A stretch of 64,000 nt of DNA from Ferrimonas sp. YFM (GTDB lineage: Bacteria; Pseudomonadota; Gammaproteobacteria; Enterobacterales; Shewanellaceae): NCBI RefSeq assembly GCF_030296015.1, contig NZ_AP027368.1, positions 868,001 to 932,000 on the forward strand, in the 5' to 3' direction. Numbering within the stretch: the stretch's first letter is position 1; the number at the start of each line of letters is the position of its first letter. A program made the position numbers and the translations under genes. Below, piece after piece: positions 20,278 to 60,876 of this stretch. A model generated the notes under the pieces. The model was given only the letters and a program-made list of their open reading frames with translations. It ran no database searches and had not been told where the DNA came from.

Positions 20278-20319
20278 CTTATCCTCGTTGCTGCTCTGAG
20301 GGCCTGGCCCGCCGGATAC

Positions 20320-20346
20320 AAAAAAGCCTCCCGGTGAGGGAGGCTT
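20320..20346 (-). terminator. Attenuator terminator in the pheA leader
   Basis: Read on the minus strand, AAGCCTCCC and GGGAGGCTT pair around a five-base loop, followed by a T-run. It lies between pheL and pheA, 43 bases before the pheA start, as expected for transcription attenuation. Confidence 0.88.
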
Positions 20347-20389
20347 GCTGGGTCATCTATTTTCGTTTTGGCACCCGCATTTCGCCTCC

Positions 20390-20446
20390 CTATCTGGGTG
20401 GTGCAAAAAAGAAAATAAAAAACCTGTGAATCTGAATTTTTATCAT
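20390..20446 (-). CDS. pheL: pheA operon leader peptide
   Basis: This 18-codon reading frame starts at the ATG at 20446 and ends at TAG. It contains five phenylalanine codons within seven positions (RFFIFFFAPPR at its end). Ribosome stalling at these codons when charged tRNA-Phe is short would favour the anti-terminator and allow pheA transcription. The order raiA-pheL-pheA is that of E. coli. The peptide differs in sequence from the E. coli one but keeps the Phe run. Confidence 0.92.
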   Translation of the reverse strand: MIKIQIHRFFIFFFAPPR

Positions 20447-49887: not shown

Positions 49888-50668
49888 ATCTTAATGGGTG
49901 GGAGACAAAATTACCAGAGGGTTGTTGCCCCACAATGAGGTCGGATCTCAGTTCCTGGGGTGGGACTTTCAGCTGATTTCCGGTTTTTGTTCGCTGTAAA
50001 CCTTCGGCTTGGTAAAGTGGTTGTTGCGATGGGGTGTGCGCATTGTTACTTCTCGCTTGCATTTTCTTACCATGTTGCGGTGTTTTGGTGCTGATGCTCA
50101 CATTATTTGGAACTTGATGTGAAATGAAGGCGGCAGGGGATGCAGTTGTCTTGACGCTTTGTTGTACAGCAAATTAGAATTCAAAAAAATGTTGTTTTTT
50201 TCGGGGTTAAAAAATCATTGATGTGAATTTGATTATTAGTGATCTATAAACTTCCTTCACCCTATGAATAGGGCAGTTGTTAATAATTTCACAAAGGCCA
50301 AATCAAGAGCCTGAATTAAATTCTCCGTTGGATTTAAAAACATTTAGATAAAGCTAAATTAGACTGGCACACACTTAAGCATCGACTGGTGTTGCTCACT
50401 AACGCTTCATAAAACAATCTTCAAGATTCACATGACTGCCTGAGACATTGTTTGTCATTAGAGTAGTCGGTTATTGCCTGGTGGTTTTGCTTCACATTTT
50501 AATGGGCAGGTTGTTTTCACGGAGCACTCTTTTTTGATGACAGCTTACCTTTTTGCTGCTGTCCGGCTTCTTTGTGCCCAAAAGAACCAAATTTCTGCCA
50601 GCTAAAGGCTTGCCATAGCATTTTGGCGATTCTGTTCTTACTTGATATTCACAAAAATAGGTTGAGCT
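49888..50668. other. AT-rich gap between the two accessory islands
   Basis: No convincing gene is seen in these 781 bases; the two short open frames lack ribosome-binding sites. The stretch from about 50100 is clearly AT-rich compared with the surrounding genes. A small stem-loop, CCCTA-TGAA-TAGGG, lies at 50260-50273. The promoter of the outer-membrane gene at 50669 must lie here, but I could not single out its boxes. Confidence 0.5.
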
Positions 50669-51517
50669 ATGCAATCAACACGACTACCTCTTTCTGGCGG
50701 ACGTCGGAGCCCTACAACTGGGCGGCTGTTGGCTGGAGCTATGATGCTCTGGACTGCCGCAGCGTCTGCCGCCATAGACTATGACCTGCCTCAGGACGAG
50801 CCTTCCCGCTGGTCCGGGTATGTCGGTGGCGGATACACAAGAAATGTTTATAGTTCAGACTCATATCATGCATATGAGTCCTTCTATATGAACGCCAGGC
50901 TGGGCTATAAGACAGATTATGGCCAGTACCGTCTTACCGTGGGTGGTGAACAGGAAACCCTGCATGGTCAGGAGTCGACTTTCTACGATCCCATGATTGA
51001 GTTTCGTACCAATAAGTACAAGTTTGATGAACAGTGGTCTTTAAGAGGCAGCCTTGCTGCCATTCTTCCCGGTAACCACTATTCCAAGCTGGATCACTTT
51101 GAATACGCATTCAGATTGGGTGGCTATCTATATTGGAACCCAAGCGATGACTGGTATTTATATGTCTCTCCAAGATATAGATACAATGATTACAAATACA
51201 AAACATCCGGGCAGCGTGTTTTAACAGAGCATCAATACGATATTGTCGCTGATGCTCTGTGGCAGTTCTATCCCGATTGGTATCTGGAACTGACCTATCA
51301 GCATATCTGGAGCGAAAATTATTACGGTAAGCAATTAGACGACAAATTCTTCTTCGCTCAGGAGTTGGGCTGGGAGATTAAGAAGAATCTGATTCTTGCT
51401 GTGGCTCACAATAACAGTGGCCGATTCTATAACCCCGAGAGGGGTCCTTCTCAAGAGTTTGAGATCTTCGATAAGCGAAGCTCAACTTTCACTCTTTCGA
51501 TAACACAATATTTCTAA
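50669..51517 (+). CDS. Outer-membrane beta-barrel protein paired with a metzincin lipoprotein (copy 1)
   Basis: The 282-residue protein has a long signal peptide (GRLLAGAMMLWTAAASA, cleavage near residue 34) and alternating aromatic strands ending in SLTQYF-like FTLSITQYF, the C-terminal phenylalanine of outer-membrane barrels. About ten to twelve strands can be imagined, similar in style to KdgM-type porins. ESRWSG/PSRWSG, YKTSGQRVLTEHQ and YNPERG are shared with the paralogue at 59342-60181. Codon use is more AT-rich than in neighbouring genes. A metalloprotease gene follows after 20 bases. Confidence 0.8.
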   Translation: MQSTRLPLSGGRRSPTTGRLLAGAMMLWTAAASAAIDYDLPQDEPSRWSGYVGGGYTRNVYSSDSYHAYESFYMNARLGYKTDYGQYRLTVGGEQETLHGQESTFYDPMIEFRTNKYKFDEQWSLRGSLAAILPGNHYSKLDHFEYAFRLGGYLYWNPSDDWYLYVSPRYRYNDYKYKTSGQRVLTEHQYDIVADALWQFYPDWYLELTYQHIWSENYYGKQLDDKFFFAQELGWEIKKNLILAVAHNNSGRFYNPERGPSQEFEIFDKRSSTFTLSITQYF

Positions 51518-51537
51518 GGCAATCAAGCTAAGAGGAT

Positions 51538-54500
51538 ATGATGAATAAATCTCTTTTGTGCCTCTCGATCACCAGTGCTCTGGCACTGTCTGGTTGCGGG
51601 GCGGGCGAGGAGCCCTACAAGGAACTGCCCAAGGATGAGAAGCAGATAACCACTGCGGCCATCGAGAAAGCCGGTGAGCGTCAATATCTCTACATCCGAA
51701 GTGTTGGGCAGGCGCCACGTTATGCCGCCGCTATCCGCGGATTTACCCAGGGCGACCCCAAGCTGGTGACCCTTAAAAAAGTTAAAGGTGGTATTCAGGT
51801 ACTGCAATTAGACCGCGATAACATTGGTCTCGGCCATGAAGGTCGGTATGACACCGACAACAACCTGGCGCCAGTAGTGACCATTGCAGGTCAGTATATC
51901 GATTTCAAGTGTAAAGAAGATAAGTGGCGTGAGTGCATCAACGAAGAGGAGGAGAACGAGGACAAAGACCTCGAGTGGCATCAGAAGCGCTACTTCGTTC
52001 CTCAGTTTGAAAAAACCAGTGTCCATGAAGTGTCGATCGAGGACATATTTACCTTTGGGGAATGTGTAAAAGAGGACAAAGAGGTTGTGACTCTGGCTCG
52101 AGATGAGGATCGAGGCTGGAAGGGTTATGAGATGAATCTTGAAGAGGGGGTGATCAACTTCGAGATCAAGCACACCTACACCGCTTCTGACTCCTGTCTG
52201 AATCAGTTCTACAACGGCAGCCTGGATAACCTCTCCTTCACTACCACAGAGTACATCTCCATTGTGGCGGTGGATAAGCTGGCCAGCCCAGATTATCAGG
52301 CTATTCCCTACAGTGAGGATGAGCGGGGTACCTACGGTTACTTCACTTCCGATCATCACTATCGTGATGCCACCGACAGCGACGGTGTGGACGGCTATGT
52401 CCGTACCTACATGAATCGCTTCAATCCTGCCAAGGAGAGCATCACCTATTACCTGAGCAACAACTTCTTCGATGCCAAGAACAAGGCGTATCTGGATGCG
52501 GCCAACGAAAGTGTTACCGCCATCAATATTCAGAACAAACTGTTCAAGACCGGCTTCCCTGAGATCAAGCTGGAGCAGGCCAATGACAAGCGTCATGGCG
52601 ACCTGCGTTACAGCCACATCACCCTGTTCGATCAACCCCTGGACAACGGTCTGGCCGGTTACGGCCCCTCTGCCGCCAACCCCCTGACCGGTGAGATTGT
52701 CAGCGGCCGGGTGAACCAGTACAGCTCCAACCTGAAGCAGGGTGCGGTGCGCTATTACCGCCAGGTACGCCTGGACTACAACCGTGGTCGTCTGGACGCA
52801 GAAACCGCCACCGCCCTGACCGGTGTTGAGTACAAGAACAGCAACGACGTCAATACCGGTAAGCCGGCTCCCGTGGACAAGGTGGACGCTGCCAATTTCG
52901 AGCAACCTGAGCAGACTCTGCTGGCCAAGGCCACGACTTTGCCCAAGCTGGTGAAGGAGAGCCAGGAGTTCGACGAGCTGGTGGACTACGATCGCGAGAC
53001 CCGCGACTACTGGTCCGAAAACACCATGATGCACCTGGACAATGTCTATGCTGTTGGCGGTGCCGCACGTCAGCTGCCTGCGGGCATCAAGGATCACAAG
53101 ATTGACTGGAAGCGAGCCGAGCTTTGGGAAAACGGTGAAGTGGGCAGCAAGCTGGTTGCCTTTGAAACCCTGCCTGTGGATCTGCAGAATGAGCTGACCA
53201 CCAAATTGGCTGCTCAGGCCTTTGCCGGCACCCTGACCCATGAACTGGGTCACAACTTCGGCCTGCGCCACAACTTCTCCGGCAGTACGGACAAGGAGAA
53301 CCTGTTCACCGAAGAGCAGATGGCGATGATGGATGAGGCCTTTACCGCAGCCGGCTACCCGGACCTGACGGTGAACGCCGAGTTCTCCAGCCAGATGGAC
53401 TACAACGTCAACCGTTTTGCCACCACCTTCGAACCCTACGATCTGGCGGCCCTGCGCTTTGCTTATGCTCGTGAAGTGGAGAAGAAGGACGGCGAGTTTG
53501 TCTCCCTGAAAGAGGAGGATGCCAAGCGTCGTGATGAGCTGGCCAAAGGCATTGTCAACGGTGAAACCCGCTTTGGTGCGCTGTACAACATCGAACAAAA
53601 GAATGAGCTGCGTAGATACAACTTCTGCACTGACGGCCATGTCACCCTCAACTCCAATTGTAACCGCAGCGATGCTGGCGGCACCCTGGAGGAGATTTCT
53701 GAATTTTACATTGAACGATATAAGGACAGCTATGAAACCGCTAACCTAAGGCATAATCGTCAGACCTTGTTTGAAGATCATACCTTGAGCTACGCCATTG
53801 GTCGCAAGCATCTGTTCAATGATATTCGTCAGTTTGTTGAAGACGTTACCAGCTATGAGGAGCTCTTCACTCTGCCTGAGAACACCTTCGTTCGTTGGTG
53901 CGGAGAGCTGGCTGCCTCCAATGAAGACGCTTGGTATTGCGAGATGGTTCGAGCCGAGGAGCAAGCCGCGGACCTGTTCTTGACCCTAATGGGTGAGAAT
54001 GATGCGACCATTCGTGCGCACTTTAGAGCTAAAAGCGATGACTCCCCTGCCGGTAGTTTGACCTTTAACCTGAGGGAAGTGCTGGATTCTTATCTGAGAT
54101 TCTCCGGTCAGCTCAGTGAACAATTTGAGCCGGGCCAAGTTATTCTCAACGCAACAGACTCTCCTGAGGTCCTGAAAGAGCTGATTTTGAAGTCACGCTT
54201 CTCTGAGGCAATTCAGGAGCAATTTTATATTGCTGATATCGAGTTAAGCGGTCGCTTGCTGAATGGCATGAAGGCGCCAAAGTCCTCGCCCAATCATCCT
54301 TATGTCAATGAACGCGATGTACTTGGCGTGTGGCCAGATAAATTGCTTGCAGTACGTTCACTGGTTACACGTACTACGGAGCGCAGCTCAAGCGGATTGA
54401 GTAATCGAGCTTTAGTCGACCTGCCTTCTGTTCAGCCTGTGTTTGAGGACATGCTTTGCAGAGCGGTTATGGGAGAATCCAGCGTATTGAGAGATACTTG

Positions 54501-54996
54501 CGGCACCAGCGGTAAGCTGGGTAAATATATGCCGGAATACAGTGACTTTGCGGATCGCAGCATTGAGCCTCTCCCTAATTACGCTCGGAGTGTTGCTCGT
54601 TACTTCGGTTTTAGCACTGATCGTAATGGTTACCCCAAGGGGGAAAGTAATCTGCTGGAGATGATGCTTCGTCAAGTGTCTATGGCATCGCGAGATAGTG
54701 ATTATCAGGGATACGAGAAAGCGCGTAAATGGCGAGAGTACGTGGGTATTCACTGGAACAATATCTCATTGGCCAAGAAAGCGGAGATCACCCACAACGG
54801 TCGCATCTATGTTGCTACTGAAGAAAACGTTCTGGCTATTGGGTTAATCGATAGAATTCAAAGTGTGGAAGCGATTTTAGCTCCCGACTCTGGTATCGAT
54901 CTGACCCGGGTGCTTGATGGTCGTACTTTAGAAGAGCACCTTAGGGCGCAACTGGAGCGTGACTACCGCGTTCTGACCTACCTACCTGTTCTGTAA
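51538..54996 (+). CDS. Large zinc metalloprotease lipoprotein with metzincin site (copy 1)
   Basis: The 1152-residue protein has a lipobox (LSGC, Cys20 region) and the metzincin zinc site HELGHNFGLRH (residues 568-578) with a Met-turn candidate SSQMDY (Met620). Repeated marks shared with the copy at 55371 include APRYA..RGF.QGDPKLVTL near residue 60, GYGPSAANPLTGEIV near residue 375 and DVLGVWPDKLLA near residue 925. It fits the DUF4953/DUF5117-type zinc-dependent metalloproteases. It should sit in the outer membrane. The GC content drops in the last third. The substrate is unknown. Confidence 0.85.
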   Translation: MMNKSLLCLSITSALALSGCGAGEEPYKELPKDEKQITTAAIEKAGERQYLYIRSVGQAPRYAAAIRGFTQGDPKLVTLKKVKGGIQVLQLDRDNIGLGHEGRYDTDNNLAPVVTIAGQYIDFKCKEDKWRECINEEEENEDKDLEWHQKRYFVPQFEKTSVHEVSIEDIFTFGECVKEDKEVVTLARDEDRGWKGYEMNLEEGVINFEIKHTYTASDSCLNQFYNGSLDNLSFTTTEYISIVAVDKLASPDYQAIPYSEDERGTYGYFTSDHHYRDATDSDGVDGYVRTYMNRFNPAKESITYYLSNNFFDAKNKAYLDAANESVTAINIQNKLFKTGFPEIKLEQANDKRHGDLRYSHITLFDQPLDNGLAGYGPSAANPLTGEIVSGRVNQYSSNLKQGAVRYYRQVRLDYNRGRLDAETATALTGVEYKNSNDVNTGKPAPVDKVDAANFEQPEQTLLAKATTLPKLVKESQEFDELVDYDRETRDYWSENTMMHLDNVYAVGGAARQLPAGIKDHKIDWKRAELWENGEVGSKLVAFETLPVDLQNELTTKLAAQAFAGTLTHELGHNFGLRHNFSGSTDKENLFTEEQMAMMDEAFTAAGYPDLTVNAEFSSQMDYNVNRFATTFEPYDLAALRFAYAREVEKKDGEFVSLKEEDAKRRDELAKGIVNGETRFGALYNIEQKNELRRYNFCTDGHVTLNSNCNRSDAGGTLEEISEFYIERYKDSYETANLRHNRQTLFEDHTLSYAIGRKHLFNDIRQFVEDVTSYEELFTLPENTFVRWCGELAASNEDAWYCEMVRAEEQAADLFLTLMGENDATIRAHFRAKSDDSPAGSLTFNLREVLDSYLRFSGQLSEQFEPGQVILNATDSPEVLKELILKSRFSEAIQEQFYIADIELSGRLLNGMKAPKSSPNHPYVNERDVLGVWPDKLLAVRSLVTRTTERSSSGLSNRALVDLPSVQPVFEDMLCRAVMGESSVLRDTCGTSGKLGKYMPEYSDFADRSIEPLPNYARSVARYFGFSTDRNGYPKGESNLLEMMLRQVSMASRDSDYQGYEKARKWREYVGIHWNNISLAKKAEITHNGRIYVATEENVLAIGLIDRIQSVEAILAPDSGIDLTRVLDGRTLEEHLRAQLERDYRVLTYLPVL

Positions 54997-55021
54997 TCCA
55001 TCAGAACCTGTATTGAAATCT

Positions 55022-55050
55022 AAGGGCCGCATTCGCGGCCCTTTTCTTTT
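55022..55050 (+). terminator. Terminator of metalloprotease gene copy 1
   Basis: AAGGGCCGC and GCGGCCCTT pair around ATTC and are followed by TTCTTTT. Confidence 0.88.
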
Positions 55051-55320
55051 GTCCGGCCTCTGGGCTGTATGTCATCGCCGATGACACCACGGCTTCCCTC
55101 TGAATTTCGTTGGCACTGGGTAGAGGCTCTGAGCTTTGAGGAGATGAGTCAGGGTAACCTTGGGGACAAGGGTGGAGCCAAGCAGCAAGACAGCTGTTGT
55201 GTTCGGTTCTTTTTAGCTTGTTGGAAATGCGCTCCCGATGCTGCGTGCTCGAACCATCTCCCGCTTGCACAGAGATTGTCTTCGAGTCTTTTTGAGCCTG
55301 TGAACTGCATGTGAGCAGAA
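55051..55320. other. Non-coding gap between convergent modules
   Basis: The region between the two terminators holds overlapping open frames on both strands without ribosome-binding sites or recognisable proteins. I see nothing supported in it. Confidence 0.5.
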
Positions 55321-55322
55321 AT

Positions 55323-55350
55323 AAAAAAGCCGGCCCAGAGGGGCCGGCTT
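55323..55350 (-). terminator. Terminator of metalloprotease gene copy 2
   Basis: On the minus strand AAGCCGGCCC and GGGCCGGCTT pair around CTCT-like loop bases and end in a T-run. Confidence 0.9.
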
Positions 55351-55370
55351 GCTTATCAATCTAAGTTGCC

Positions 55371-58300
55371 CTAGTTGAACAGAGGGAACTGCTCGAAGGC
55401 ACGACGATAATCCACGTACTCGTTGGTGCTCCAAAGGCGCAGCAGCTGAGGGTCGTAGTCGTAGACCTCGGCATCCTTGCGGTAGGTGGAGTACTGATTG
55501 TTGGACTCGATGGCGTCGCCGAAGGTGGTGGCCAGGTTGTAGATCTCCGTCAGACGGGCGTCATCGATGCGGTCGATGGACTGCAGGGCGTTCTCCAGAG
55601 ACTCCTGGGAGTTACACTTGCGGTTCAGGCGCTGGGCTTCGGTTTCGCTGTCCAGTTCCAGGCGACGACACTTAAAGGTGGTCTCGTTATCCTGGCCCTG
55701 GTTGCGAACAATCTCATACTCCTTGAAGTTGTTGCGTAGCAGGAAGAAGCGGGCAAACCCGGTGGTTTCCTGCATCAGCTTCAGAGCGTCCGCATCGGCG
55801 ATGGCGATCAGGCGTGCTTCGTGGTGGTCACGGGCAGCTCGGAACACATTCAGGGCGTTGCGTACCCGGTAGCCAACACCACCAAGGCGTTCAACCTGGG
55901 GCTTTTGCTCGTCACCGTAGAGGGCGCGGGTAGCCATGGCCTGGGCCAGCAGGTTGCGGCGGGTGGCCACAAAGTTGTCTGCCTTCCAGGAGAAGGTGAT
56001 GGCGCCCTCGGTGTCCACGTAAGGACCGGCCCTGCGCAGGCCAATGGCGTCGATCAGGCCCAGGGCGTTGTCGCTCAGACCATACTCTTTCGCCCAGGCG
56101 TATCTGTGCAGGTTGTTCAATAGCGCACGGAATTCAGGGGTCGGCGTATCGGGTGTGGCTGGGTCGTACCAAAGGTCATAGTAGTCCTGATCGGTGAAAC
56201 CGAAGAAGTGCTTCATCGGCCACAGGTAGGAGGGCGACTGGTCAATCATCTTGCCCAGGCTGGGCACGTAGCGATCGACGGTCTCCACATACTCGCCATC
56301 CTTGTCCACAAACACCGGCTGGCGGGCTGTGGGGTTGCCGGCCAAGTAGGAGAGGTGGCTGTAGATATCTTCCACCTTACCTTCGATGTCGATCAGCGCC
56401 AAGCTGGAGTTCTCGGTGTCTACGAAGGGGCTGTCGCGGCGCACCAGCATCTGGGCAGCCAGCAGTTTGTCAGGCCAGGCGCCCAGCAGGTCGACAGAAG
56501 CAACAGAGCTCTGGTGCGGGTTGTTGGCCTGCAGACTAGCCTGGATACGGCCATCTCGGGTCTCGGAGCGGACCACGATCTTGTTCTGCTGATTGGCCAG
56601 AACCTCTACCAGCTCGTCGTCGTAACAGCTAGTGGGTATGTCGCGGTTGTCGGACATGCCCGGGCCGTAGGTGCGCCACAGGTCGGACAGGGTGGCGAAG
56701 CGGTAACGGTTAGGTACCCCTGGGGCGATCTCTTCCAGTTCACACACCTTGTCAGGCTGAGTCATTACATCGATGAAGAAATCGGCAGCGGTGACTGCGG
56801 CGTCGTAGGTATCACACAGGTTACGCAGGTTGCTGGTCATGGTGTCACGAGGCACACCGCGGCAGCTGTTGGCGTAGATCTCACTGAAGACACGACCGTT
56901 GGTGTTGCTGACCCCCAGGTAACGGGCAAACAGGTAGTCAATTTCTTCGACGTTTTCAATCACGTCACGAATATTCAGGAACTGATCCCAGCGGCTCAGG
57001 AAGTAGTTGTACTGATGGAACTGGTAGAAGCTCTGACGGCCGTTACGACGGTTCATGGTGTCGTAGCTGTCGTAGTAGCGCTGAATGCGGAAATCGGTCA
57101 GCTCTTTGATGTTGGTGCCTTCATCGAAGCGGTTACACAGCACCGAGGTGGTGGTGTGCTCGTCGGTACAGAAGTTGTACAGAGTCAGGCCCAAAGTCTG
57201 GTTGTCACCGAGATCGATATTTTTAAGTTCGTCGCTCTCCAGATAGTTGTCTCGTATCTGCTGGACGATGCCCCGAGGGTAGGCGTTGAAGTCCTCAGCC
57301 AGTTCGCTGTCCAGCTTGGCCAAAGAGAGGTACTTCTTCTCTGTGGTGGTCTTGGGCTGGTTGGTCTCTTCATCGATGGCTGTGGTGCTCAGGTCCGCTT
57401 CGACCTGGCGGCCGTAACCGAAACGCAGGGCGGCGATGTCGTACTTACCATAGGTCGGCAGCTCATCGAAGATGGAGGCCGCGTAGTCCATGATGGAGCT
57501 GTAGGCAGGCACCTTCTCCATACCCTTGGCCTTGGCTTCGGCTTCAGAGTAGAAGTTGGCTTTGTCCACTGAACCCATAAAGTTGTGGCGCAGGCCCAAG
57601 TTGTGGCCCAGTTCGTGGATAAGGGTGGAGCGGAACATGTGGGCGGCGATGGCGTCGCTGACCTCTGACTGCTGGGCTGCGGTCAAGTCGTCCCAGGCTT
57701 TCAGCTCGGTGTTCTCTTCGTTGGCGAAGTAGCCACCCTCCAGATAATCGATGCCTTCAATCAATCCTTTGGACTGGGTGCTCAGCCACATGAACTCCAC
57801 CGCGTAAGCATTCTGTTCGGCGAGCATATCCAGATACTGCTGATGCTTGTTGAAAGATTGAATCGCCAGATCTTTGTGCTGGGTGTTCCAGGTTTTCTCT
57901 GCGGCGTGGTTGTGGCCAGCCAGTTGAGTGTCCATGGTGCTGCCGGCAACCTGGGCAATCTCGCTGTCAGCCAACTCTGGAACACCAATAGGAGCGCCCA
58001 TGTCTGCGGCTAGCATGTCGCGGAACGCCTTAACCTCGAGGTTTTCTTCGGTATTTGTGTCGGCAGGCTCCTGAGTCTCCGGCTTGTATTCGTCAGGACG
58101 GGCAATCTCCTGACGGTTGTAGCGCATCACCAGTTGGGTCCACATGGCGCGGGTGGCGCCGCGGATGACGCCGGCGTACTGGTTGACGTGGGCGTGAACG
58201 ATTTCACCGGTCAGCGGGTTGGTGGCGGAGGGGCCGTAACCCAGCAGGCCATTGTCTACAGGGTCGGTGATCAGGTTCAGTACGTTGTAGCGCAGGTCTC

Positions 58301-59321
58301 CGGTATGAACGCCCGCTTTGCTGTCCGGATTGACGATGCGAATCGGCGGTACCCCGGTGCCTTCCAGCGACTTATTGATGTCGGCGATGCTCTCCATGGT
58401 GACGCGCTTGTACAGCTCGTTGCCTTCATCGTGGTAGCTGTCGCTCAGGTAGTAGTCGATGCTGTCCTGATTGGGGGCAAAGCGGTTCAGCAGGCTGAAT
58501 ACACTGCCTTGAACATTGGTTTCACCTGTGGCGGTACGCTGCTCTTTGCTGTCCTCGAAGAAGCCGTAGAAGGCACGGTCACGGCCCTGGTAGTAGATGG
58601 GCTGGTAATCCGGGGTGACAAGCTTGTCCAGCTTCACCAGGGAGTAGAAGAAGCGGGTCTTGAAGGACAGGTTCTTCGGGTCATTGCCGAACTGGTACTG
58701 ATCTTCTGGGTCTGCGGTAAAGGTGCGCTCCAACTCGACGTTGATCACGCCCTCTTCAGCGTTGTACTCGTAGGAGACGATACGAGGTTCGGCGGTCTCT
58801 TCCACGTTGCTGGCGGTGTACCAGGTCAGGCTGTCATGAGCCAGGGTGGCAACCTTTTCGTAGTCCGGCACGAAGTGAGTGGCGTCGGTCCACTCGCGGT
58901 CTTCGTCTTTGTTGATCTCTTCTTTGTTGGTGCACTCATCATAGGCGTTGAGGGCACAGCGGTATTCACGGAATTCACCGGGAATTTTCAGAACCGGGGC
59001 TTTGTTGATGTCCGAGTCCCAGCGGCTCTCGCCATCCATGGACAGCTTATCGCGGTCCACCTCTTCGGCGTAGATGCCGTTGAACTCGTCAAAGCGCAGG
59101 GTGACCAGCTTGGGGTCGCCCTGGAAGAAGCCACGCTGAGTCATGGCATATCTGGGGGCGGCACCGGTGGAGGGCATAAACAGCCAGAGGGATTCGGTGT
59201 CCAAAGAGGCAGTGGAGATCTCTTCGGCAGGCCTCTCAAATTTGTCGTAAGGCCTGTCTTCAGTGCCGCAGCCGGTGAGGGCGGCGGCCACTGCGGCGGC
59301 AATGGCGATCCGTTTAAACAT
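55371..59321 (-). CDS. Large zinc metalloprotease lipoprotein with metzincin site (copy 2)
   Basis: The 1316-residue protein starts with a signal peptide and lipobox (LTGC, Cys18 region). Its zinc site HELGHNLGLRH lies at residues 569-579 and a Met-turn SSIMDY has Met611. The zinc sites of the two copies therefore lie at the same distance from the N-terminus. It is 164 residues longer than copy 1, mainly after the catalytic domain. APRYAMTQRGFFQGDPKLVT, GYGPSATNPLTGEIV and LLGAWPDKLLA are shared with copy 1. A barrel gene lies 20 bases upstream. Confidence 0.86.
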   Translation of the reverse strand: MFKRIAIAAAVAAALTGCGTEDRPYDKFERPAEEISTASLDTESLWLFMPSTGAAPRYAMTQRGFFQGDPKLVTLRFDEFNGIYAEEVDRDKLSMDGESRWDSDINKAPVLKIPGEFREYRCALNAYDECTNKEEINKDEDREWTDATHFVPDYEKVATLAHDSLTWYTASNVEETAEPRIVSYEYNAEEGVINVELERTFTADPEDQYQFGNDPKNLSFKTRFFYSLVKLDKLVTPDYQPIYYQGRDRAFYGFFEDSKEQRTATGETNVQGSVFSLLNRFAPNQDSIDYYLSDSYHDEGNELYKRVTMESIADINKSLEGTGVPPIRIVNPDSKAGVHTGDLRYNVLNLITDPVDNGLLGYGPSATNPLTGEIVHAHVNQYAGVIRGATRAMWTQLVMRYNRQEIARPDEYKPETQEPADTNTEENLEVKAFRDMLAADMGAPIGVPELADSEIAQVAGSTMDTQLAGHNHAAEKTWNTQHKDLAIQSFNKHQQYLDMLAEQNAYAVEFMWLSTQSKGLIEGIDYLEGGYFANEENTELKAWDDLTAAQQSEVSDAIAAHMFRSTLIHELGHNLGLRHNFMGSVDKANFYSEAEAKAKGMEKVPAYSSIMDYAASIFDELPTYGKYDIAALRFGYGRQVEADLSTTAIDEETNQPKTTTEKKYLSLAKLDSELAEDFNAYPRGIVQQIRDNYLESDELKNIDLGDNQTLGLTLYNFCTDEHTTTSVLCNRFDEGTNIKELTDFRIQRYYDSYDTMNRRNGRQSFYQFHQYNYFLSRWDQFLNIRDVIENVEEIDYLFARYLGVSNTNGRVFSEIYANSCRGVPRDTMTSNLRNLCDTYDAAVTAADFFIDVMTQPDKVCELEEIAPGVPNRYRFATLSDLWRTYGPGMSDNRDIPTSCYDDELVEVLANQQNKIVVRSETRDGRIQASLQANNPHQSSVASVDLLGAWPDKLLAAQMLVRRDSPFVDTENSSLALIDIEGKVEDIYSHLSYLAGNPTARQPVFVDKDGEYVETVDRYVPSLGKMIDQSPSYLWPMKHFFGFTDQDYYDLWYDPATPDTPTPEFRALLNNLHRYAWAKEYGLSDNALGLIDAIGLRRAGPYVDTEGAITFSWKADNFVATRRNLLAQAMATRALYGDEQKPQVERLGGVGYRVRNALNVFRAARDHHEARLIAIADADALKLMQETTGFARFFLLRNNFKEYEIVRNQGQDNETTFKCRRLELDSETEAQRLNRKCNSQESLENALQSIDRIDDARLTEIYNLATTFGDAIESNNQYSTYRKDAEVYDYDPQLLRLWSTNEYVDYRRAFEQFPLFN

Positions 59322-59341
59322 TGGGATACCTTTTTAATAGA

Positions 59342-60181
59342 TTAAAACTGATAGTTGGCAACGAAGTAGTAATTCATCTTGTCGAGATCGACGAAGTCAT
59401 GAATTGGGTCTGTGCCACGTTCCTGGTTGTAGTAGGTGATGCCGTTGGTCATACCGATGGCGATATCGATATTGTCCGTGAGCTGGTAACCAAGCTCTTC
59501 ACCATGAATTAGGTCTGGGTAGATATTGTCGCCGTCATAATCCCAGCCGTATCTGGAGATTAAGTAGGTGCTGAAGTTGAACCTGTCGGCAAAGAAGTAA
59601 TCGATGGTAAATAGATTGCTTGCCTGATATTCGGACAGTTTTTGGTCACCAGCTGTCTTGTATTCATGAAAGTTCTTTCTTAGCCGCACACTGTCGCCTA
59701 TGTAGAGGCCATCTACATAGTCGCTCAGATTGAAGCTGACGCGCAGGCTACCGCGAACACCGAACTCCAGATCCTGTCGGCGGGAGAACTTGGAAGTGGG
59801 TAGGATCAGACGCACCTCTCCACTTAAGGTGCTTGATTTGCTTGGCTTCCAGAGGTTGTTTCTCGACCAGGACAGGGAGGTGTCACTCCAGAAATCTCCC
59901 TGACTACCATACTCGTCACCATCACTGGCGTGGTAACCGGAGATGACGGCCTGTAGCCGTGAATCATTATTCAGCGAATAGCGAATGATCGCTGTTGCCG
60001 AATAGTTACGTTCTGCCAAATATGCACCAGCACTGTATTTGTTTTGGGTGTAGTCGACACTAAGAAAGCCTGACCAACGGCTCTCTTCAGGATCACTCCA
60101 TCTGTCCTGAATATTTTCTGCACTCGCTAAAAAAGGCGCTATCCAAAGTATGGATGCGACCAAAAATGAGCATATTTTCAT
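59342..60181 (-). CDS. Outer-membrane beta-barrel protein paired with a metzincin lipoprotein (copy 2)
   Basis: The 279-residue protein has a signal peptide (FLVASILWIAPFLASA) and ends in YYFVANYQF, an outer-membrane terminal strand. It shares EESRWSGFLSVDYTQNKYS, YKTAGDQKLSEYQ and YNQERG with copy 1 but is otherwise diverged. It precedes its metalloprotease by 20 bases, the same spacing as in copy 1. The codon use is AT-rich. Confidence 0.8.
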   Translation of the reverse strand: MKICSFLVASILWIAPFLASAENIQDRWSDPEESRWSGFLSVDYTQNKYSAGAYLAERNYSATAIIRYSLNNDSRLQAVISGYHASDGDEYGSQGDFWSDTSLSWSRNNLWKPSKSSTLSGEVRLILPTSKFSRRQDLEFGVRGSLRVSFNLSDYVDGLYIGDSVRLRKNFHEYKTAGDQKLSEYQASNLFTIDYFFADRFNFSTYLISRYGWDYDGDNIYPDLIHGEELGYQLTDNIDIAIGMTNGITYYNQERGTDPIHDFVDLDKMNYYFVANYQF

Positions 60182-60519: not shown

Positions 60520-60876
60520 TCAATCCGCCAGTTCGGCGCCGACACTGAAGCTCAGCATTCTGGGGGGTTCTCCCAGCTCCATTCGGCCCTGTTCGCCCAC
60601 CTTGATCACCACCGCTGGCATCAGCAGTTGGTTCAGGCGTTCGCCTTCGCCACTGGTCAGCACCGCGTCTACGGTGATCTGCTCGTTGTGGGTGCTGGGC
60701 TGCAGAGAGAGGCGGTAGTCACCCAACTGGTGGTCGCTCCACTGGTTGGCGGGCACTCGGGCGTCCAGTTGCATGGGTTGGGTGCCGGGAAGCACCACTT
60801 CGATGGAGAGATCCAGCTCCTGGGCCGCAACGTTAAGGGCGGTCAGCGACAGCAACAGGGGCAGAGCAAACTTCAT
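60520..60876 (-). CDS. Small periplasmic protein of unknown function
   Basis: The 118-residue protein has a signal peptide (KFALPLLLSLTALNVAA) and a beta-rich mature part (LDLSIEVVLPGTQPMQLDAR; ITVDAVLTSGEGERLNQLLM) without cysteine or membrane helix. I recognise no family. It stands alone between the protease island and nqrM. Confidence 0.65.
   Translation of the reverse strand: MKFALPLLLSLTALNVAAQELDLSIEVVLPGTQPMQLDARVPANQWSDHQLGDYRLSLQPSTHNEQITVDAVLTSGEGERLNQLLMPAVVIKVGEQGRMELGEPPRMLSFSVGAELAD

Follow-up and report, generated by a model that had tools for sequence, protein, structure and literature searches.

A stretch of 64,000 nucleotides from the genome of Ferrimonas sp. YFM (contig NZ_AP027368.1, positions 868,001 to 932,000 of the forward strand), referred to here as the window, contains two gene pairs that converge tail to tail. 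Each pair, or module, consists of a gene for a predicted outer-membrane β-barrel protein followed by a gene for a very large lipoprotein of the metzincin type of zinc protease, with module A on the forward strand, module B on the reverse strand and 374 nt between them (Table 1). An earlier note on this DNA, made from its letters alone, had described this arrangement, which is confirmed, and the likeness between the modules is far above chance: the two proteases are 30% identical over 1171 columns (E 4e-137) and the two barrels 28% identical (E 3e-20). The protease and the barrel together probably represent an undescribed kit for extracellular protein digestion and peptide uptake in certain marine bacteria.

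Table 1. Features of the two convergent modules, in window coordinates.
Feature	Position	Strand	Description
5.4-kb stretch with module A as its sole clear genes	49903..55319		Absent from F. futtsuensis locus L001, which has 39 nt instead
Barrel A	50669..51517	+	282 aa; predicted outer-membrane β-barrel; Pfam OMP_b-brl E 9.8e-5, short of cut-off
Protease A	51538..54996	+	1152-aa metzincin lipoprotein; LSGC lipobox 17-20; HELGHNFGLRH 568-578; Met-turn SQMDY 618-622; DUF4953 E 4.3e-8
Terminator-like stem-loop 3' of protease A	55022..55043	+	Consensus scan
Terminator-like stem-loop 3' of protease B	55327..55350	-	Consensus scan
Protease B	55371..59321	-	1316-aa metzincin lipoprotein; LTGC lipobox 15-18; HELGHNLGLRH 569-579; Met-turn SSIMDY; DUF4953 E 1.1e-10
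Barrel B	59342..60181	-	279 aa; predicted 12-stranded outer-membrane barrel; AlphaFold2 mean pLDDT 62

In both modules 20 nt separate the stop of the barrel gene from the start of the protease gene (51518-51537 and 59322-59341). This identical spacing, also remarked on in the earlier note, is a property of the window but not a constant of the family, as the gap between model ends ranges from 18 to 42 nt at the 39 loci of the window's family described below. The region between the modules contains one terminator-like stem on each strand, from a scan that as a whole was not above shuffled sequence (12 sites in the region versus 10.0 after shuffling). A sigma-70 promoter scan returned seven sites against 7.4 expected from shuffles, which is no excess, and an Rfam search gave no match in the module region.

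The proteases look catalytically intact and lipid-anchored, because the zinc motif and the lipobox are conserved across the reading frames compared. The zinc motif begins at H568 in protease A and H569 in protease B, as had been recorded before; HExxHxxGxxH is invariant in an alignment of 25 proteases, and HExGHxxGxRH is present in all 85 protease frames of more than 1100 aa from the fetched loci. An S.MDY Met-turn follows the zinc motif by no more than 90 residues in 76 of these 85 frames, both window proteases among them, and the nine frames that lack the strict form all lie in loci L072-L079. Similarly, a strict lipobox is found near the N-terminus in 76 of the 85 frames, the other nine having LLGC, LYGC, LNAC or LNGC. 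These 85 frames, and the 78 pairs compared further on, include some species twice (L003/L080, L002/L116). In both window proteases the +2 residue after the lipobox cysteine is glycine, i.e. not aspartate, and by the usual rule glycine rather than aspartate at this position directs a lipoprotein to the outer membrane.

By family, the window proteases match the DUF4953 model (PF16313, Met-zincin) with 33.2 and 41.7 bits against a cut-off of 24.2, but only over approximately the first 100 of its 316 positions. They share this metzincin core, which was matched in 25 of the 25 proteases tested, with the classical DUF5118-DUF5117-DUF4953 zinc metalloproteases. Their N-terminal halves differ, with no match to DUF5117 or DUF5118 at E <= 10 in residues 1-540 of protease A or 1-555 of protease B, whereas two classical homologues from the same order (genomes G014 and G358) match DUF5117 over the cut-off. 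The Pfam Peptidase M66 model gave the window proteases 17.7 and 18.6 bits, under its cut-off of 20.6; all 25 members match it at E <= 0.01, the best at 8.2e-6, and M66 is the annotation of a copy in Vibrio parahaemolyticus. This copy (L070) lies on plasmid NZ_CP141289.1, where the protease is labelled 'M66 family metalloprotease' and the unannotated barrel upstream of it is broken into two overlapping frames. No solved structure related by sequence was found for protease B, and an AlphaFold2 model built from five sequences was too poor for use (predicted local distance difference test, pLDDT, 37).

Barrel A matches the barrel model with an E of 7.4e-102, being itself a row of that model, and both window barrels end in a C-terminal phenylalanine. 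The AlphaFold2 model of barrel B, which is of modest confidence, has 12 strands, the first beginning at residue 36 when the signal peptide is counted, and residues 1-23 fall below a pLDDT of 50, in the region where the inserted N-terminus of a COG4313 channel would be expected. In an alignment of 78 rows the hydropathy of the two faces of the 12 predicted strands differs by 0.9 to 3.7 units; the outward faces are 28% aromatic and 43% aliphatic and the inward positions mostly polar or charged, where the parity of the faces was itself picked by hydropathy. The conserved residues predicted to face the lumen comprise arginines 143, 166 and 168 together with D100 and E184. A lining of such mixed charge would be suited to zwitterionic peptides.

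The outer half of the barrel appears to be more conserved than the inner half, with values of 0.496 versus 0.392 for the loops and 0.527 versus 0.451 for the half strands (joint p 2e-5), in a test that sets both termini in the periplasm of the modest-confidence model and treats 78 related rows. In the 78-row test 17 of the 20 positions with the highest conservation belong to the outer half; an earlier test with 23 rows had given a p of 0.017. Since the outer loops of outer-membrane proteins are usually their most variable part, such conservation in the model suggests that the barrel meets a constant partner or cargo outside the cell.

No credible solved structure related by sequence was found for barrel B, and the closest solved folds to its model lie within about two Z units of one another: the COG4313 channel 4rl8 (21.4), the amyloid exporter FapF (20.5), the autotransporter translocators NalP (20.0) and EspP (19.7), and KdgM (4pr7; 19.6, rmsd 1.7 over 168 residues). 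Foldseek places FapF first. Because 12-stranded barrels serve in both import and export, the predicted fold does not separate these two directions. The main rival to an uptake function has its footing here, namely that the barrel serves to translocate the lipoprotein protease through the outer membrane, to fix it there or to mature it, whilst peptides enter through general porins. The lipoprotein autotransporter and Slam would be analogues of such a system, which here would be made of separate genes. The fold is about as near to the translocators and the polypeptide exporter as to the uptake channels, and the conserved outer half could equally be a docking site for the protease. We nevertheless consider this display or activation function unlikely, if of appreciable probability, on account of the gene arrangements described below and because, according to passages of one paper, a dedicated partner is not always needed (PMC5500766).

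The constancy of the pairing, as the earlier note had assumed it, is found well beyond the window. Of 394 genomes sampled from the same order, 22 have a protease match at E <= 1e-5. Two of these (G014 and G358, mentioned above) match only weakly, through classical proteins, show no barrel in the part of the locus that was read and were not counted; weak partial barrel matches in G169 and G375, the sole barrel matches outside the protease loci, had also been set aside before counting. The remaining 20 genomes contain 24 protease loci and 22 of these adjoin a barrel, including one in G259 with an internal stop, the other two being a locus with only a barrel fragment at a contig edge (G111) and one that runs off its contig (G096). 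The barrel lies upstream at the paired loci of this sample except at G023:C10, where it is downstream of the protease. Among 152 genomes of the window's family the protease and the barrel occur in an identical set of 37, with 39 loci each and all 39 adjacent (Fisher p 3e-36, with related genomes treated as independent); one of these loci, in G732, has its protease in three pieces. The two genes likewise share an identical set of 30 out of 148 Vibrio genomes, where 36 of the 41 barrel loci have the protease adjacent and five have oligopeptide transporter genes in between. A scan of genome contigs confined to close relatives gave three loci. In a class-wide sample of 274 genomes nothing matched at E <= 1e-10 apart from the window genome and a single distant DUF4953 match, such that a general spread over the class was not seen in this sample; a weak protease match in G424, from the class-wide search, was set aside before counting.

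The converse case, raised beforehand as a reason for doubt, that proteases might mostly occur without the barrel, was examined and is not what was found: three solitary proteases (L077, L078 and L079) have no barrel nearby and their genomes carry one elsewhere. At two further loci the numbers of the two genes differ, L075 having two proteases for one barrel and L076 one protease and a second split over two frames. These departures from one protease per barrel speak against a dedicated display partner, in favour of which stands the near-strict pairing even where no transporter genes were found near. The solitary metzincin lipoproteins (L077:4329-10762, L078:2752-9021 and L079:9170-15637) adjoin a lipoprotein-like protein of 733-737 aa, i.e. 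another two-gene protease pair, without a barrel; the neighbour in L077, the only one of the three tested, belongs to the subtilases and has a P-domain.

Trees of the protease and of the barrel broadly agree with each other (Mantel r 0.69, a value reached in none of 2000 permutations). Module A groups in both of them with 22 copies from the window's family, of a Ferrimonas A type and a Shewanella type (genus g2 of the family, which we take to be Shewanella), with support of 0.999-1.0, and module B groups with the Ferrimonas B copies and eight Vibrio copies, with support of 1.0. Modules A and B are thus, as judged from sequence, two old and separate lineages that have come to lie side by side. 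The window is collinear with F. futtsuensis on both sides of positions 49903-55319 (89% and 93%), the 5.4-kb stretch that contains module A and that F. futtsuensis lacks, and this may reflect either a gain in the lineage of the window or a loss in F. futtsuensis; a repeat search over the stretch gave no readable mobile-element signs at its ends. The trees and this synteny rule out a recent local duplication as the source of the two modules, and the description of them in the earlier note as a duplicated module appears correct in a deep sense only. In another species of the window's genus (G374), a lambda-type integrase (L045:13526-14665) lies approximately 1 kb upstream of a module A relative, hinting at transfer on an integrative element.

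The two genes do not always share one history. The proteases of L049, from Vibrio, and L043, from a family designated f12, share a lineage whereas their barrels group with their own relatives, and because of this it appears that protease genes can be exchanged behind a constant barrel. It could be argued from these recombined lineages that the two are simply surface proteins of one operon that are regulated together and do no joint work, and the agreement of the trees follows in part from linkage alone. Such loose co-regulation is very improbable in our estimation, as it sits poorly with the co-presence of the genes in sporadic genomes, with a link that outlasts altered gene orders and with the conserved outer half of the barrel.

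The new element, and the one from which uptake gains most among the functions suggested earlier (display, activation or uptake, with the first two still a rival), is the association in Vibrio with genes of an oligopeptide ATP-binding cassette (ABC) importer, Opp. Genes of this kind are clustered with the barrel at 31 of 41 Vibrio barrel loci, in several orders, and five times the barrel stands next to oppB. At 30 of these loci oppB and oppC are at least 55% identical to the reference Opp and lie on the same strand within a 20-kb stretch, in the orders oppBCADF-barrel-protease (22 loci), barrel-oppBCADF-protease (five) and barrel-protease-oppBCADF (three). At the 31st locus, L103, the protease is followed by a different Opp set, which includes an SBP_bac_5 protein of its own. 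From these varied orders it would follow that the link either survived rearrangement or arose more than once. In the second arrangement the barrel precedes oppB by 28-49 nt and is set apart from the protease, therefore it would seem to be a part of the transport system and not merely a helper for display. Close OppB relatives (E < 1e-110) are found in 29 of the 30 Vibrio genomes with a module versus 30 of the 118 without (p 2.6e-13, again with related genomes treated as independent), where the 59 positive genomes include partial or stop-containing matches (G836, G858, G887 and G904). The lone module genome without a close OppB, G880, is that of L103. Since Opp genes are also found in genomes that have no module, it would seem that the module became attached to importers already in place, and did so more than once.

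Beyond Vibrio, L048, from another family, has the order protease-barrel-oppABCD, whilst that genome's other module (L044) is without Opp, and at three loci of family f12 the Opp genes are three or four genes away and face the module. Close OppB as a universal partner of the module can be ruled out for the window's family, in which no genome out of 152 matched at E <= 1e-60, though the same query matched in Vibrio.

At the Vibrio fortis locus the barrel is immediately preceded by genes for a family 5 solute-binding protein, for ATPases of the OppD and OppF types and for two permeases that come nearest to the models of YejB and YejE. Scores against the NCBIfam models (YejB/YejE, OppD and OppF) are under the curated equivalog or subfamily cut-offs and the SBP_bac_5 Pfam score is over its cut-off. 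The resemblance of these permeases to the microcin C transporter models allows for a function in antimicrobial-peptide defence or scavenging, in which these peptides would be cleaved by the protease on the cell surface and their fragments removed by an importer of the Yej type, and YejABEF is mentioned in a review of bacterial transport systems that remove antimicrobial peptides (PMC9629497). The very large size of the proteases, their tandem copies and the subtilase beside a solitary one fit bulk proteolysis better, and the window's family possesses the module without this importer subfamily; a defensive function is accordingly quite improbable.

Taken with the Opp linkage, these features lead us to favour, with a little better than even confidence, the view that the two genes of each module form a protein-feeding unit, composed of a surface metzincin and a barrel that acts as a peptide channel, with an importer in the inner membrane. 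The metzincin, as an outer-membrane lipoprotein exposed on the cell surface, would cut proteins there, and the 12-stranded, polar-lined barrel would let the resulting peptides into the periplasm. The protease may perhaps be docked near the conserved outer face of the barrel, forming a physical complex with it. Uptake would be finished by an inner-membrane importer, which at most Vibrio loci would be the oppBCADF system of the same cluster and in the window's family a different one, whose genes lie elsewhere. The apparent exchange of proteases behind the barrel would be more in keeping with a peptide channel of general use than with a matched exporter.

A number of observations weigh against a protein-feeding unit of this kind. 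Opp genes are missing from the stretch read at ten of the 41 Vibrio barrel loci, 30 Vibrio genomes carry the same Opp subfamily but no module, and Opp genes near a module outside Vibrio are confined to L048 and the three f12 loci. The window's family lacks close OppB at the threshold given above and no importer adjoins the window modules; the window genome has a single SBP_bac_5 locus (G000:C1:1128808-1129943, the only one found), which is broken across two frames, together with two PTR2-like loci, all of them away from the modules. Of the two structural models, that of the barrel has modest confidence (pLDDT 62) and that of the protease is unusable (pLDDT 37), and the exchangeable proteases of L049 and L043 speak against a finely matched pair. 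Finally, the COG4313 channels, whose fold is one of the closest to that of barrel B, are believed to import hydrophobic molecules, according to passages of one report (PMC4493636).

A more demanding version of the protein-feeding unit can also be envisaged, in which the metzincin is mounted on the barrel at its conserved outer face and passes peptides directly into the channel, with a peptide ABC importer behind, so that the whole would operate as one surface machine. The changing protease lineages behind the barrel lower the odds of this arrangement and we regard it as rather doubtful. Were it to prove true, it would constitute a gammaproteobacterial protein-utilisation locus, a counterpart of the polysaccharide loci of Bacteroidota built from unrelated parts.

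The logic of the module is known from RagAB, VolA and KdgM, and the parts differ here in every slot. RagAB is linked to the gingipains of Porphyromonas gingivalis. The likeness lies in the outer-membrane uptake of the products of proteolysis by a proteolytic species, as set out in parts of PMC11817032. RagA is, however, a 22-stranded TonB-dependent barrel with RagB as its lid and belongs to another phylum, whereas the present system combines a metzincin with a barrel of 12 predicted strands, joined in Vibrio by ABC importers; the 279 residues and 12 predicted strands of barrel B place it apart from the SusC/RagA type, defined by a 22-stranded barrel with a plug. In lipid use by Vibrio cholerae a gene for a FadL homologue adjoins volA. 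VolA resembles the protease as proposed here, being a lipoprotein hydrolase of the cell surface whose action makes a nutrient available for uptake, as described in sections of two papers (PMC9496633, PMC5500766). It differs in being a lysophospholipase that acts in the use of fatty acids, and the protein families are unrelated.

The KdgM, NanC and VhGalP channels share the 12-stranded channel fold and work with extracellular lyases and importers, which in the case of KdgM serve oligogalacturonates, so that the logic of enzyme, channel and importer is the same. Unlike KdgM, the present system uses a protease in place of a lyase and has a lumen with conserved arginine and acidic residues, and the KdgM Pfam model is absent from the matches of 23 barrels at E <= 0.1. 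The COG4313 channels head the tied group of folds and two of the same 23 barrels match their model (PF13557, Phenol_MetA_deg; best E 1.2e-7), whereas the other 21 have no match to it at E <= 0.1, and the hydrophobic substrates mentioned above set these channels apart. FapF is likewise a 12-stranded barrel, but according to passages of PMC5557850 it is an exporter of amyloid subunits whose barrel is preceded by 81 periplasmic residues that include a coiled coil, whereas in the model of barrel B the first strand has already begun by residue 36. In the autotransporters the passenger and the barrel form one polypeptide, unlike the separate genes of the window.

Searches of the open-licence literature listed no title on a barrel-metzincin pair and no papers with 'protein utilization locus' or 'peptide utilization locus' (or 'loci') as phrases; the one paper returned for the names of the protease family contains the M66 phrase but neither DUF4953, PF16313 nor DUF5117. 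To our knowledge, little is settled about how peptides from large proteins cross the outer membrane in Gram-negative heterotrophs outside the Bacteroidota. A compact and sporadic gene pair, in Vibrio often clustered with an ABC importer, proposes a definite protease, channel and importer for this passage and makes the question testable. If the protein-feeding function is true, it would also provide a role for a group of large proteases of marine bacteria that have no functional name, including the copy on the V. parahaemolyticus plasmid.

Several smaller genes accompany the modules. Nine loci of the window's family (L050, L051, L113, L117, L121, L122, L123, L126 and L128) have a conserved, membrane-like open reading frame (ORF) of 143-180 aa just upstream of the barrel; the nine form one BLAST cluster, those of L050 and L051 have no Pfam match, and a third component of the module is thereby possible. 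ORFs of similar size stand upstream of the barrel in L052/L053/L129 and in L054/L118 as separate small clusters, and several C-termini of the upstream membrane-like ORFs resemble WIKPIKG. Similar-looking helix-turn-helix proteins are encoded divergently upstream of the barrel in three genera (L040:13256-14071, L047:5801-6109 and L103:7818-8591), with HTH_26 found in those of L040 and L103 and the likeness of the L047 protein judged by eye, and they are candidate regulators. Upstream of barrel B in the window, a secreted-looking ORF of 118 aa (60520-60876, reverse strand) has no Pfam match and is also present in F. futtsuensis at L001. Far from the modules, the window contains an ordinary phenylalanine leader peptide (Rfam RF01859) at 20317-20439 on the reverse strand.

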